DNA of 64,000 bases from assembly GCF_963666525.1 (NCBI RefSeq), contig NZ_OY762905.1, forward strand, positions 744,001 to 808,000. Direction: 5' to 3'. Numbering within the stretch: the first letter of the stretch is position 1; each line of letters opens with the position of its first letter. Of this stretch, positions 28,498 through 33,595 are shown in pieces. The translations under genes and the position numbers were made by a program. The notes beneath the pieces were generated by a model, which did no database searches, was not told where the DNA came from, and saw only the letters and a program-made list of their open reading frames with translations. Source of the stretch: an uncultured Cohaesibacter sp. (GTDB taxonomy: Bacteria > Pseudomonadota > Alphaproteobacteria > Rhizobiales > Cohaesibacteraceae).

Positions 28498-28596
28498 ACC
28501 GCGGCAAGCCGATGGGCACCAATGGAAAAGGGGCGCCCTGATAGCGCCCCTCATAACATTTGATGTTGCATTCTCCGATCTGTGCCTCTTTGGTCC

Positions 28597-30156
28597 CTAT
28601 CGGGTTTCCCCTGCCTGCAGCGCCTTCGACAGATCCAGTCGGCCAAAGCCGAATTGCGGATCGCGACCTGCCGGCCCGAGATCTTCGGTGCTCTGCGACA
28701 GACGAGCCTTGATTTGCGCAAGCCCAAGCCCCGGCTCCTTCTGCAACAGAAGCGCAATCGAGCCGGAAATATAGGCAGTCGCCATCGAGGTTCCCGACTG
28801 CAGCGCAAAGCCTTCGTCCCCGGCAGCCACCAGAACATCGACACCGGGCGCAGCAAGCTCCACCTTGTCCCCCTGGTTGGCAAAGACATAGAGCGCATCG
28901 GCATCATCGGTAGCGGTAACCGCGATCACCGACGGATAGGCAGCGGGAAAAGCCACCGGGGCCTCGCTGCCTTCGTTGCCTGCTGCGGCAACCGACACGA
29001 CGCCCCGCTCGGACGCTTTGGCAAGCGCCGCTTCCATGAGCGCATCCCGGCCACCGGCAAAACTGAGATTGAGGATCTCGGCCCCCTGCTCGACGGCCCA
29101 GTCGATCCCGCCCACGATGTCGTAGCTGTCTGCCACCATGTTGCCCCGTTCATCGGCCCGGAAGACCTCGGCGGAAAGCAGCGACACCTTCTCGGCGATG
29201 CCGCGCATGCCCGATCGCGCCGCTATGATAGAGGCGATCGCCGTGCCATGTGCTGGCACCAGCTCCCCTTCGGCGGCATCGGGAAAGGCCGAATAGTGCG
29301 CAGCAACCACACCGGCAACAGCCGGATGGGAGGCATTGACGCCACTGTCGATAACAGCAAGCCGCACCCCTTCGCCACTGACACCATCAGCCATCTGCCC
29401 TGTTCCCAAGCCCAGCCGGTCAAACGCATATTGCAGCCCGGCAAACGGAGGCTGCGGCACGGAAGTGCCATCATCGGACGGATAGTAGAAATAGTCAGGC
29501 TGGGCCCTGAACACCCGCTCGTCACCGGCCAGCTGCAGGATATCCCGCACCGACATGCCCTCCGGATAGGCCAGCTTCAGAACATATTGATCCAGAAGCT
29601 TGATCTTCGTCTGCTCAATCAGATCCAACCCATAATCACTGAGGAAAGTTGCCACATCGCTCTCGGACAGACCGGGATTGAGCGTCACCACAAATTCGGT
29701 GTCACTGGCCCACGGCTTGTCTCCGATGGAATAGACCCGCGGCTTTGCCGCAGCCACACGCAGGGTTTCTGGCAATTCAATGCGCGGGGTTTCTCTGGGC
29801 GGCCTTGGCGAACGGGCCTGTTGCGACGGCTTGCGCGGTGCAGGTCGATAGCCCTGCCTTGGAGGCGGCGTCTCGGGTGGCGCATAGTCGGGTGGCGGCT
29901 GACGCATCTGGTTCTGCCGACTGATGCCGTCGATGATGGTCAATCCCAATCCCAGCCCCACGCCAAAGGCGGCACCAGACCCGATCCCGCGAGACCCGCG
30001 GCGATCAGGCTCTGTGCCACGCCGTGGATATTTCGGGATGTAACGCTGATCCGTGTAGGTCTGGGCACCGGCAGCTCCGGGCAGTGCCACAACAGGCACA
30101 GCCAGAAGTCCGGCGACTATCAGGGCTATAGCTGACTTCTGAAAGCGCATGCGCAT
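28597..30156 (-). CDS. secreted subtilisin-like (S8) serine protease
   Basis: 519 aa. Signal peptide (RMRFQKSAIALIVAGLL, cleavage after GAQ), then a Gly-rich hydrophobic patch (about 58-75), a Pro-rich linker (about 85-130), a prodomain-like alpha/beta segment (about 150-222) and the S8 catalytic domain. Catalytic D270 (VIDSGV), H303 (AHGTAIAS), oxyanion N394 (AGNEGS) and S457 (SGTSMATA) are all present. The prodomain segment (FVVTLNPGLSESDV...) resembles the C-terminus of the anti-sigma factor encoded just upstream. It is the last gene of a sigma/anti-sigma/protease operon, with GGAG six bases before the start. Confidence 0.92.
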   Translation of the reverse strand: MRMRFQKSAIALIVAGLLAVPVVALPGAAGAQTYTDQRYIPKYPRRGTEPDRRGSRGIGSGAAFGVGLGLGLTIIDGISRQNQMRQPPPDYAPPETPPPRQGYRPAPRKPSQQARSPRPPRETPRIELPETLRVAAAKPRVYSIGDKPWASDTEFVVTLNPGLSESDVATFLSDYGLDLIEQTKIKLLDQYVLKLAYPEGMSVRDILQLAGDERVFRAQPDYFYYPSDDGTSVPQPPFAGLQYAFDRLGLGTGQMADGVSGEGVRLAVIDSGVNASHPAVAGVVAAHYSAFPDAAEGELVPAHGTAIASIIAARSGMRGIAEKVSLLSAEVFRADERGNMVADSYDIVGGIDWAVEQGAEILNLSFAGGRDALMEAALAKASERGVVSVAAAGNEGSEAPVAFPAAYPSVIAVTATDDADALYVFANQGDKVELAAPGVDVLVAAGDEGFALQSGTSMATAYISGSIALLLQKEPGLGLAQIKARLSQSTEDLGPAGRDPQFGFGRLDLSKALQAGETR

Positions 30157-30181
30157 GCTCGTCTCCCCGGCTGATCCGCAG

Positions 30182-30913
30182 CTACTGGCTTGCGGATGCG
30201 AACTGAACCACGTCATTTCTTGCCTTGAGCTGTTCCAAAACAGCTTGTGTTCCTCCCGCCGGCAGATGCCCCTGAGCAATCACGATCTCATAGAACCCGC
30301 CCGCCTTGGGACCGTCCTTGATAATCGCGCCAAGCTCCTTCAGCAGCCCATTGACCGCCTCGATGCTGGCATCCTTGCGGAAGGCCACAAGCAAACTGCC
30401 CGATGGCATACCGGCTTGCGAAAGCGTTTTCGCCTGAGGCCCGGCAGCAGTGGTAAAGGTGCTGACAGACGGAATGTCCGTCGTCTGGCTTCCGCCATGA
30501 ACAAGATTGCCGATGATCACGGCCTGAGCAACTATCACGACAGCAACCGCCGCAGCGACAAATTGCATCGAAGGGGTCGAAAGACCGGCAAGGAAATCAC
30601 GGATCCAGCCGGACAGCCCGCGCCCCGCACGGCCAGAAGCCGCGACAGATGCCGCAAGGGAGGCTGCCGGTCCGCTTTTTGCTTCAAGCGCATCGATCGA
30701 GCCTAACAGACGATCAAGCCCGCCAGCAGAAGGTGCGCCAAGCGCAGCATGCTGCTGCTCCACCGCCAGGGTTTCCTCGGCAATGAGGCCGAGCTGCATG
30801 TGCATTTCGGGGTGAGCGGCGAGATAGGTTTCCACCTTCTCGCTATCATCAGGCTCCAGCAATCCCTTGGCAAACCAGGGCAGGAGCTTTTCGATTTCCG
30901 GATCGTAGGTCAT
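30182..30913 (-). CDS. membrane-anchored anti-sigma factor
   Basis: 243 aa. The N-terminal cytoplasmic anti-sigma domain (about residues 1-55: LLPWFAKGLLEPDDSEKVETYL) has no zinc-binding Cys. One transmembrane helix lies near residues 116-137 (FVAAAVAVVIVAQAVIIGNLV). The periplasmic tail of about 100 residues ends in a ferredoxin-like segment similar to the prodomain of the neighbouring subtilase. The start at 30913 has AGGA seven bases upstream. Its gene is between the sigma and protease genes on the same strand. Confidence 0.85.
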   Translation of the reverse strand: MTYDPEIEKLLPWFAKGLLEPDDSEKVETYLAAHPEMHMQLGLIAEETLAVEQQHAALGAPSAGGLDRLLGSIDALEAKSGPAASLAASVAASGRAGRGLSGWIRDFLAGLSTPSMQFVAAAVAVVIVAQAVIIGNLVHGGSQTTDIPSVSTFTTAAGPQAKTLSQAGMPSGSLLVAFRKDASIEAVNGLLKELGAIIKDGPKAGGFYEIVIAQGHLPAGGTQAVLEQLKARNDVVQFASASQ

Positions 30914-30962
30914 GTCTTTTTCCTCAACACTGGTATCCAAGGGCTTCATTGATCCAAGGGCC

Positions 30963-31532
30963 TCATGGCCAGCCCCGGTCGATGCCGGATTTGGCCAGAA
31001 GATCTGACAGTTTCTTGCGTGCATGGAACACCCGCGTCTTCACCGTGTTTTCCGGAACGGACAGGATCACGGCAATCTCCTTGATGGCCATTTCCTGATA
31101 GTAGACAAGATCGATCACTTCCCTGTGTTCATCGCTGAGCCGGTCGATACACAACCGCATGGCAGCCGCCTTGTCCTGCTTCAGCGTGGTAACCTCCGGC
31201 GTGTCCGTATCATCTTCAAGCCCGGAGGCATAATCGTCATCAAGCGCGGCATCCGATCGCTTGCGCAACTGGGATATCGCCTTGTTGCGGCCAATGGAAA
31301 GGATCCAGGAGGCAACCTGTGAGCGCCCCTCGAACTTTTCCGCGGACCGCCAGACATCGATGAAGGTCTCGTTTACAAGTTCCTCTGCCAACGCCTCGTT
31401 CTTCACGAAGCGCAGCAGAAAGCGGTAAAGCCGAAGATGATGCCTCTGATAAAGCAGAGCAATGGCCTTGCGATCATTTCTCGCGATCAGCTCCAGAAGG
31501 GCAAGATCACGGGTGTTTTCCGCTCCAGACAT
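30963..31532 (-). CDS. ECF-family RNA polymerase sigma factor
   Basis: 189 aa. Region 2 (ALLYQRHHLRLYRFLLRF, then DVWRSAEKFEGRS with ASWILSIGRNKAI) and region 4 (RLSDEHREVIDLVYY, EIAVILSVPENTVKTRVFHARKKL) are clear. GAGGA lies five bases before the start. It overlaps nothing and is followed 49 bases on by its anti-sigma gene; the cognate signal is probably at the envelope. Divergent from the first BA14K gene. Confidence 0.93.
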   Translation of the reverse strand: MSGAENTRDLALLELIARNDRKAIALLYQRHHLRLYRFLLRFVKNEALAEELVNETFIDVWRSAEKFEGRSQVASWILSIGRNKAISQLRKRSDAALDDDYASGLEDDTDTPEVTTLKQDKAAAMRLCIDRLSDEHREVIDLVYYQEMAIKEIAVILSVPENTVKTRVFHARKKLSDLLAKSGIDRGWP

Positions 31533-31729
31533 GCATTCCTCAATTTCACTGTCATACCTGTGTCGTTTGAGCGCGCCGTCAGGTTCAAATTTTTTTGCAA
31601 ATTTTCAGCAGGACAAACGCGCCCCATCTTGGCACAGCTCTCTTCTTTGAACCAGTCAAAGAAGGTCAAGGCCAACCTAAGCGGGACAACCACTGGAAAA
31701 CACCGGAAACAAAATAAACAAAATATATT

Positions 31730-31828: not shown

Positions 31829-32236
31829 ATGATCCGCCACAAGTTAATGACACTGGCCATGATTACAGCTCTCGGTATGACCGCCGCCGTTACTGGAACG
31901 GCTCCACAGGCCCAGGCAAAGGACGGCAAGAACGCAGCTCTCGCAACAGGTATCATCGTCGGCACGGTGGCAGGGGCCATCGCCGTCAATGCGGCCAAGG
32001 ACAACAAGCGCCCCGTAACAGTGCACCGTGCGCCTCCACCGCCAAAGCACTACGCCCCGGCACCGCGCAAGGCCTATGCTCCGAACCCACCACGGCATTA
32101 CGCGCCAAATCCGCGCTCAATCGTCATGAGCAGGGAACAGATCAGGCGCTGCTCCGAACGCTACCGGTCCTTCAATCCCAGAACCGGCTATTACACCGGT
32201 TATGACGGCAGAAAGCACCTGTGCACGCTGCGCTAA
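31829..32236 (+). CDS. BA14K family protein
   Basis: 135 aa, exported (signal peptide to about residue 30, QAQA). A Gly/Ala-rich zipper helix (GKNAALATGIIVGTVAGAIAV) is followed by a Pro/Tyr-rich segment and the BA14K core with the paired Cys (C109 and C132) bracketing ERYRSFNPRTGYYTGYDGRK. AGGAG is seven bases before the start. The family was named for a Brucella abortus immunoreactive protein. First of three paralogues here. Confidence 0.88.
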   Translation: MIRHKLMTLAMITALGMTAAVTGTAPQAQAKDGKNAALATGIIVGTVAGAIAVNAAKDNKRPVTVHRAPPPPKHYAPAPRKAYAPNPPRHYAPNPRSIVMSREQIRRCSERYRSFNPRTGYYTGYDGRKHLCTLR

Positions 32237-32552: not shown

Positions 32553-32888
32553 ATGTTCAAGAAAACCATCGCAGCTTTCGCAATGATCGCAACCATCGCA
32601 ACGACCGCAAGCTTGGCCGTATCCACCACCGAAGCCGAGGCCGCAGGCGGACGCCACGCTGCCTTCGCAGTTGGCGCAATCACCGGCCTTGCAGTCGGAG
32701 CCATCGCAGCCAACGGCAACTATCACCGCCCATATTATGGCCCGCGCGGCCCGGCACATGGCTACTATGGTCGCCCGGCCCCTTGGACGCCAGCCTGGTA
32801 TCGCTACTGCTCGAACCGTTACCGGTCTTTTGATCCGCATACCGGCTACTTCGTGACCTATGGTGGTCACCACCGCTTCTGCCGTTAG
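32553..32888 (+). CDS. BA14K family protein
   Basis: 111 aa, exported (signal peptide to about residue 31). It has a Gly/Ala zipper (FAVGAITGLAVGAIAA), then a His/Tyr/Pro-rich region and the BA14K core (YCSNRYRSFDPHTGYFVTYGGHHRFC). GGAGAGAGACC precedes the start. Its C-terminal core is closer to the third copy than to the first. Confidence 0.88.
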   Translation: MFKKTIAAFAMIATIATTASLAVSTTEAEAAGGRHAAFAVGAITGLAVGAIAANGNYHRPYYGPRGPAHGYYGRPAPWTPAWYRYCSNRYRSFDPHTGYFVTYGGHHRFCR

Positions 32889-33172: not shown

Positions 33173-33595
33173 ATGATGAAACACAAAATCAGTATCTATC
33201 TATTGCTTGCAGCCTTGTTGCCTGCAATTGCAATGACGATGGCGACGCAGAAAGCCAACGCCAGAGATGGTCGGAATGCAGCCTTTGCGACAGGGCTGAT
33301 CGCAGGGGCCGTTGGTGGTGCTGCAATCATGGCGAATGATCGCTACTACAACCCGCCACGCCGCTATTACCGCCCGGCTCCGCCACCACCACGCTACTAT
33401 CGTCCGGCACCGCCGCGCTATTATCGCCCAGTAGCGCCGCGTTACTATCGTCCGGCTCCTCCACCGCGCTATTATGGCCGTCCGGCGCCCTGGACCCCTG
33501 AATGGTACAGCTATTGCCATTCCAAATACCGGTCCTTCAACCCGCGTACCGGCTATTTCACAACGTATGGCGGACAACAGAGATTCTGCCGTTAG
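33173..33595 (+). CDS. BA14K family protein with Tyr/Pro repeats
   Basis: 140 aa, exported (signal peptide to about residue 29). After a Gly/Ala zipper (AAFATGLIAGAVGGAAI) comes a low-complexity array of YYRPAPP-like units (residues 58-101), then the BA14K core (YCHSKYRSFNPRTGYFTTYGGQQRFC). GGAG is six bases before the ATG. The repeat array is much longer than in its two neighbours. A strong terminator follows. Confidence 0.87.
   Translation: MMKHKISIYLLLAALLPAIAMTMATQKANARDGRNAAFATGLIAGAVGGAAIMANDRYYNPPRRYYRPAPPPPRYYRPAPPRYYRPVAPRYYRPAPPPRYYGRPAPWTPEWYSYCHSKYRSFNPRTGYFTTYGGQQRFCR

Follow-up and report, generated by a model that had tools for sequence, protein, structure and literature searches.

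In an uncultured Cohaesibacter sp., the membrane anti-sigma factor of a three-gene operon ends in a putatively periplasmic tail which, at the level of protein families, is a homolog of subtilase prodomains, and the adjoining gene encodes a secreted subtilase. The operon lies in contig NZ_OY762905.1 (positions 744,001 to 808,000 of the forward strand; these 64,000 nucleotides are referred to below as the window), and its genes follow each other on the minus strand in the order sigma factor, anti-sigma factor and subtilase, with intergenic gaps of 49 and 25 bases. The cassette of an extracytoplasmic function (ECF) sigma factor, a single-helix anti-sigma factor and a subtilase that a first-pass annotation had described here, with its coordinates and gene order, is borne out by the open reading frames (ORFs) and by their domain matches. 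The homology suggests that the switch may gauge the adjoining protease. The features referred to throughout are the following.

30963..31532, minus strand: ECF sigma factor, 189 amino acids (Sigma70_r2, r4_2 and NCBIfam PRK12515)
30182..30913, minus strand: single-helix anti-sigma factor, 243 amino acids, directly after the sigma gene and in the same orientation
30497..30571, minus strand: predicted transmembrane helix of the anti-sigma factor, residues ~115-139, a hydrophobic stretch located by eye
30440..30457, minus strand: membrane-proximal linker motif FTTAAG of the anti-sigma factor, residues 153-158, a loose motif found by eye
30185..30403, minus strand: predicted periplasmic tail, a subtilase-prodomain-like domain, residues 171-243 of the anti-sigma factor (hhalign, PF22148, AlphaFold, Foldseek)
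28597..30156, minus strand: secreted subtilase of family S8, 519 amino acids (PF00082, E 1.4e-42)
30064..30156, minus strand: likely signal peptide, subtilase residues 1-31, assigned by eye from a basic start, a hydrophobic core and AGA ahead of Q32
29479..29703, minus strand: predicted prodomain of the subtilase, residues ~152-226 (profile A5; secondary-structure order as in the tail, at low confidence)
28642..29376, minus strand: S8 catalytic domain, residues 261-505, with the triad D270, H303 and S457 in the usual motifs
31562..31588, minus strand: promoter-like element TTGAACC-N16-CGAC, 5' of the sigma gene, a conserved sequence
28526..28550, minus strand: possible operon terminator, a GC-rich stem-loop followed by TTTT directly 3' of the subtilase stop, read from the sequence

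Kinship of the anti-sigma tail and subtilase prodomains

Since pairwise comparison of the two window segments was unsupportive, tail and prodomain were compared as families. Homologs of the anti-sigma factor provided a tail alignment of 42 rows, 33 of which form profile A4, and neighbouring subtilases provided a prodomain alignment of 32 rows, 24 of which form profile A5; 11 of the 43 S8 ORFs were dropped from the latter because the catalytic-Asp motif missed them. Comparison of the tail and prodomain profiles by hhalign rendered a probability of 88.5% (E 2.7e-6 for a single comparison), and that of A4 with A5 a probability of 87.2%, whereas 100 column-shuffled prodomain profiles gave at most 1.9%; the resemblance noticed in the first-pass annotation thus exceeds chance at the family level. 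Because many unrelated domains have a ferredoxin-like fold, control profiles were made from the source genome for Lrp-RAM (13/13 matches), ACT (9/11) and HMA (5/5) domains, with which the tail reached 0.38%, 0.51% and 13.95%, and the prodomain 1.43%, 0.31% and 14.39%, respectively. PF22148, the fervidolysin prodomain, is alone among 24,736 Pfam families in matching more than one of the 33 tails (12/33 at a permissive limit, best E 1.3e-6), and it is also the sole family matching more than one of the 24 prodomains (5/24, best E 1e-6), that of the window not being among the five. Taken alone, the window tail scores below the PF22148 cut-off (18.4 bits against 21, E 0.003); the family is not listed in a Pfam scan of the full-length window anti-sigma factor, and a search of the source genome with it found nothing at E 1, which means that the tail escapes single-sequence searches. 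Among the matches of the tail profile are two S8 prodomains from other genomes (G475, E 0.001; G707, E 0.0095 over 25 positions only), to which no weight was given because plainly unrelated proteins score equally (G681, E 8.9e-5; G604; G774).

The predicted structures agree with this relationship. AlphaFold2, run for the anti-sigma factor on a three-row alignment, places in the tail a strand (171-178), a helix (184-194), two strands (196-203 and 207-213), a helix (221-231) and a strand (236-241), with predicted local distance difference test (pLDDT) values of 60 to 83 in this block and mostly poor values in the remainder of the protein. In the subtilase prodomain the order is strand 154-159, helix 165-174, strands 178-185 and 190-196, helix 203-210 and strand 215-220, with pLDDT values of 45 to 76. 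The same topology, beta-alpha-beta-beta-alpha-beta, is found in the two predictions, at moderate confidence for the tail and low confidence for the prodomain. The model of the whole subtilase is unusable (mean pLDDT 34) and its Foldseek matches, DAHP synthase and RuBisCO, are meaningless; only the order of the secondary structures of the prodomain was taken from it. When the anti-sigma model was used as the Foldseek query, the first match was 1itp, the subtilisin inhibitor POIA1 (probability 0.99, E 0.04), and the top 20 also contained the subtilisin prodomain entries 3afg (two chains), 2z58, 1spb, 3whi, 1scj and 3cnq. Prodomain structures are thus among the nearest solved folds of the modelled tail, which is predicted to have the subtilase prodomain fold. 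Sequence searches of the PDB with the anti-sigma, tail and prodomain profiles rendered chance matches only (E 0.25 or worse).

Several results have to be set against this kinship. In the window pair, BLASTP reports no match between the tail and the prodomain segment, and their local alignment is at chance, as 609/1000 shuffles equal it. The ungapped alignment made by eye in the first-pass annotation has 8/71 identities, a score equalled by 6/2000 shuffles, and its register ranks third when every ungapped offset of the tail along the subtilase is scored; the register is sensible, but the alignment is weak alone and the family profile alignment needs a 4-residue gap as well as short gaps. Likewise, the shared helix Gly and Ser-x3-Val are present in the window pair but lie outside the invariant or near-invariant columns of the families. 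AlphaFold models the tail with moderate and the subtilase with poor confidence, the Foldseek E-values are 0.04 or worse, perhaps due to a mostly uncertain model, and Lrp-type regulators are interspersed among the top matches. Plain HMMER with the prodomain profile matched 0/101 tails of the set described below, and PF22148 at E 0.1 had no match in the four full-length caspase-linked anti-sigma factors that were scanned, from which it follows that the kinship is old. A recent duplication of the tail from the subtilase of the same operon was rejected, since a tail scores 29.5 with the prodomain of its own locus and 27.6 with those elsewhere (mean rank 19 of 44); from these sequence scores, the split between tail and prodomain looks ancient.

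Linkage of the tail to protease genes

Anti-sigma homologs were found in 26/61 genomes in a search that used the full-length protein and covered the source genome and its relatives, in 29/385 genomes of a class-level sample (16 with the tail and 13 without it) and in 25/369 genomes of a second one, and the tail profile at E 0.01 found matches in 41/398 genomes of a phylum sample, five of which are S8 or unrelated proteins. After dropping duplicates and one spurious match, the Pseudomonadota set comprises 101 unique tail-bearing ORFs. An S8 gene is located at most 3 kb from 84 of them, being downstream on the same strand in 80 cases, upstream in two (L093, L094) and on the opposite strand in two (L127, L181). 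Among the tail-less anti-sigma loci of the first class-level sample, S8 is near 2/14, as compared with 84/101 (Fisher p 5.5e-7, a value that is indicative only since the samples hold related genomes). The tail is therefore coupled to neighbouring protease genes. A sigma gene was found beside 91/101 tails. In addition, a protein encoded beside a sigma and an S8 gene on Methylocapsa polymorpha plasmid pRX1, annotated as 'hypothetical protein' and lying outside the 101-ORF set, can be aligned over its full length to a tail-bearing anti-sigma factor with 29% identity.

The neighbouring protease is not always a subtilase. In four loci, which together hold six tails, its place is taken by a caspase-like protease (Peptidase_C14, E 2.8e-32 or better); the gene is directly downstream of that of the tail protein in G660 and G1033 and 1.4 to 2.5 kb from the tail in G640 and G729, where the sigma search found none. 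These caspase-like proteases have signal peptides as judged by eye. Each of G640 and G729 carries two tail proteins, and the caspase-linked tail loci include L095, L174, L100 and L101. The remaining 11 tails have neither an S8 nor a caspase-like neighbour; five of these are at most 800 bases from a contig end, and among them L172 shows a cut-off S8 prodomain and G874 is interrupted by stops. In three loci from related genomes (L157, L160 and L161), a sigma/tail anti-sigma pair is close to carbamoyl-phosphate synthase genes, and neither an S8 nor a caspase-like gene lies within 3 kb; L157 and L161 are also near dapB- and Gfo/Idh-like genes, named from reading the ORFs.

Co-variation of the tail with the protease was analysed in 44 non-redundant loci, taken from 77 having all parts. 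With sigma distances partialled out, tail distances correlate with those of the S8 catalytic domain (r 0.17, p 0.008), the corresponding values for the cytoplasmic part of the anti-sigma factor being r 0.05 and p 0.18. The end of the domain was also inspected. In most homologs the tail domain closes the protein, 78/101 ORFs ending at most 5 residues past the end of the matched domain, and in 11/101 tails the last strand finishes in [VIL]x[LF]AEP (our reading of 18 matches, the other seven being AAQPF elsewhere). The motif A[EQ]P precedes the catalytic domain, near the end of the prodomain, in 30/87 S8 ORFs, and this resembles the AEP-ending tails.

The operon and its setting

The sigma factor matches Sigma70_r2 (E 2.4e-17) and r4_2 (E 4.2e-14) of Pfam and passes the curated cut-off of NCBIfam PRK12515 (NF009168; 255.8 against 236 bits). 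Upstream of its gene, the element TTGAACC-N16-CG[AT]C is found with a constant spacer in 15/15 Cohaesibacter upstream regions, that of the window included, the distance between the first base of the element and the last base of the ATG, both counted, being 58 or 59 bases and, in the window, 59. The source genome (5.18 Mb, a single contig) contains two copies of the exact TTGAACC-N16-CGWCA, the second one ca. 280 bases 5' of an ORF that resembles a response regulator by reading. This predicted promoter would be the pattern expected of an autoregulated ECF operon, short of proof. A broad sigma regulon could not be defined with the motif: allowing one mismatch gives 54 genomic matches against 36 for the reversed control, a modest excess.

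The anti-sigma factor has, by its sequence, the layout of a membrane anti-sigma factor, with the gene placed after that of the sigma factor, an N-terminal cytoplasmic part and one transmembrane helix, and it appears to silence its sigma factor. It matches the NCBIfam antisigma model NF052375 (E 1.1e-7) with 32.1 bits, under the cut-off of 100, and a Pfam scan of the protein found no anti-sigma domain; its orientation in the membrane was assigned by eye from positive charges. AlphaFold predicts a helix at residues 114-139 with low pLDDT. Inside this helix, Q130 (30524-30526, minus strand) is invariant across 19 aligned homologs, and a Gln within the membrane may matter for a second, intramembrane cut. 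Between helix and tail, a loose motif of the FTTAAG or YxTASG type is present in 49/101 linkers of tail-bearing ORFs, as compared with a mean of 4 and a maximum of 11 in shuffled linkers, a count to be read with the fact that the motif was drawn by eye from the very sequences in which it was counted; it is a possible candidate for the place of site-1 cleavage or recognition. The closest named relative found is C. haloalkalitolerans, whose anti-sigma factor is 95% identical.

In the source genome the window subtilase is the sole S8 protein above the cut-off, one further partial match falling below it. An NCBIfam mycosin match of the subtilase is also below the cut-off and probably just reflects the S8 domain. 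After the likely signal peptide, residues ~55-105 (30156-29840, minus strand) comprise another hydrophobic stretch, rich in Gly, as well as a linker rich in Pro. The candidate terminator at the end of the operon has a fold z of -1.5, with 18/200 shuffles folding equally well, and it is not among the sites listed by a terminator scan. On the other side, three consecutive BA14K-like genes (31829-32236, 32553-32888 and 33173-33595, plus strand; PF07886, E 3.2e-12, 6.6e-12 and 9.3e-11) are directed away from the sigma operon.

Possible roles of the tail

The reading that we favour, which is quite possible if somewhat short of probable, is that of a self-contained protease-control circuit, in which the tail would be the periplasmic docking site for the co-encoded subtilase, leading to sigma release. 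The analysis itself shows the anatomy of the operon, the homology and predicted fold of the tail and its coupling to protease genes. What we infer beyond this is that the promoter is used, that the protease docks and cuts, that the sigma factor is released and which sign the feedback has, as follows. The sigma factor would transcribe its own operon, the subtilase gene included, and the anti-sigma factor would keep it at the membrane. The prodomain-homologous tail would dock the exported mature protease in the periplasm, in the manner of a prodomain but from a separate protein, and docking would bring the protease to the periplasmic linker of the anti-sigma factor, where a site-1 cut would start regulated intramembrane proteolysis and, finally, release of the sigma factor. 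The half of the loop that goes from sigma factor to protease is plausible, because overexpression of a tail-less relative, Sinorhizobium meliloti RpoE6, raises the expression of the neighbouring serine protease gene: the increase is log2 4.7 for this gene and log2 3.6 for the anti-sigma gene (PMC6180224).

A number of observations argue against the docking circuit, especially in the strict form in which the first-pass annotation had proposed a feedback, the tail being bound or cut by the protease. If the final strands of the two predictions (236-241 and 215-220) are set against each other, the window tail finishes in VQFASA followed by SQ and the end of the protein, whereas the prodomain has VFRAQP and continues with DYFYY; the tail overlaps the prodomain AQPDYFYY in position but without its residues, ASA replacing AQP. 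It stops about two residues past its last predicted strand, in a register of low confidence, and therefore its end may not reach the active site. The co-variation signal is weak, the partial correlation being small; tail and prodomain show a non-significant partial correlation in the 44 loci (0.069, p 0.13), that of the cytoplasmic part with the prodomain is significant (0.115, p 0.03), and, with each controlled for the other, the tail and the cytoplasmic part are about equal in their correlation with the catalytic domain (0.35 and 0.32). The sigma search found none near 10/101 tails, and six tail loci with intact flanks have neither an S8 nor a caspase-like gene at 3 kb or less, other protease families not having been searched for. 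Conversely, S. meliloti EcfR6 and two other anti-sigma factors are tail-less and yet adjoin S8. They touch the refuting case named in the first-pass annotation, that of the same anti-sigma factor with an unrelated tail, but are only distantly similar. The feedback interpretation is thus favoured by the homology of tail and prodomain, by the linkage to protease genes and by the conserved promoter-like element, while its strict form meets the lack of AQPDYFYY, the tail-less anti-sigma factors beside S8, the caspase-like neighbours and the six loci without either protease.

One of the tail-less anti-sigma factors beside S8 (L115, 5664-6428, minus strand) has as its periplasmic part a 17 kDa surface antigen domain (PF16998, E 1e-9), which suggests that periplasmic domains may be swapped among such operons.

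Alternatively, the tail might be an inhibitor that binds the mature subtilase and stays uncut. An occupied tail would then keep the anti-sigma factor stable; with the protease consumed or exported, the tail would stand empty and leave the anti-sigma factor open to another site-1 protease, so that the sigma factor is freed and the protease replenished. POIA1, the first structural match, inhibits in trans, the tail domain is terminal in most ORFs as free inhibitors are, 11/101 tails retain a terminal AEP, and the coupling of tail and protease genes would be expected here too. This alternative is nevertheless unlikely, as the window tail has ASA for AQP with little beyond it, and the caspase-like partners of four loci are ill-suited to a plug for serine proteases. 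The altered end of the tail weakly favours docking over plugging of the active site, and the caspase-like partners argue that the feature that has been kept is the reading of a protease and not the inhibition of a serine enzyme.

That anti-sigma factors with unrelated tails also adjoin S8, that both S8 and caspase-like neighbours are missing from six tail loci and that a tail is scarcely closer to the prodomain of its own locus than to others would fit a different history, in which the tail derives from a prodomain but acts as an ordinary periplasmic sensor without contact with the protease, the latter being merely an output gene of the sigma factor. The strong linkage of tail and protease across many families, together with the weak co-variation with the catalytic domain, makes this rather improbable. 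Subtilase prodomains are folding chaperones, and inspection by eye predicts that the anti-sigma factor and the subtilase each reach the periplasm, so that the membrane-tethered tail might help to fold or retain the subtilase as it is exported, regulation being secondary; but the subtilase retains its own prodomain region in the 32 aligned S8 ORFs (11 more are outside the alignment), and such a helper in trans is very improbable.

As regards known systems, the docking circuit would resemble those of RseA, RsiW and RsiV, which also have a cytoplasmic sigma-binding part, one helix and a periplasmic domain near the prospective site-1 cut, and anti-sigma factors are destroyed by regulated proteolysis in the pairs RseA/DegS, RsiW/PrsW and RsiV/signal peptidase. 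The Myxococcus PopC-PopD pair, in which a subtilisin-like protease is under the control of an operon-encoded partner, differs in having no sigma/anti-sigma circuit. By profile and predicted fold the tail is in the same domain family as the fervidolysin-type prodomain (PF22148), but it is the C-terminus of a membrane anti-sigma factor, in trans to the protease, and in the window it is without an AQPDYFYY-like end. As in POIA1 and other free-standing subtilisin inhibitors, a prodomain fold is predicted without an attached catalytic domain, although POIA1 is not an anti-sigma domain and the tail belongs to an anti-sigma factor.

The closest arrangement is that of S. meliloti RpoE6-EcfR6-SMa0142, also an ECF sigma factor and a one-helix anti-sigma factor with an adjoining protease gene whose expression is raised by sigma overexpression. 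In positions 70000-90000 of pSymA we find an S8 gene, a divergent sigma gene and a tail-less anti-sigma gene, which were equated with that system by their arrangement, the record being unannotated. EcfR6 lacks a prodomain-like tail, and its protease gene is divergently transcribed. The system is assigned to the ECF26 group, with a promoter of the GGAATA type (PMC6180224), as opposed to TTGAACC-N16-CGAC here. In ECF54, conserved subtilase, carboxypeptidase and CHAT-domain (caspase-related) proteins are encoded beside the ECF sigma factor and proteolytic control has been proposed; the group is described as being without an anti-sigma factor (PMC8999054), unlike the present operon, where the anti-sigma factor bears a prodomain-like tail. 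In a search of open-licence literature, no anti-sigma factor turned up that carries, as its periplasmic domain, a homolog of the prodomain of the protease encoded with it.

In a more general form, which we consider somewhat unlikely, these anti-sigma factors would constitute a class of protease gauges in which a protease prodomain has become a receptor anchored in the membrane, so that transcription tracks how much of one exported protease there is or how active it is; the receptor domain would have been retained when, in some lineages, its partner switched from a subtilase to a caspase-like protease. To our knowledge, the site-1 proteases and the signals of many ECF systems are not known. If an anti-sigma factor carries a relative of the prodomain of its protease, the acting protease could be guessed from the sequence and the sign of the feedback would be reduced to a simple genetic question. 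The tail would then plainly exemplify the reuse of an inhibitor domain as a receptor in signalling, across many families of Pseudomonadota.

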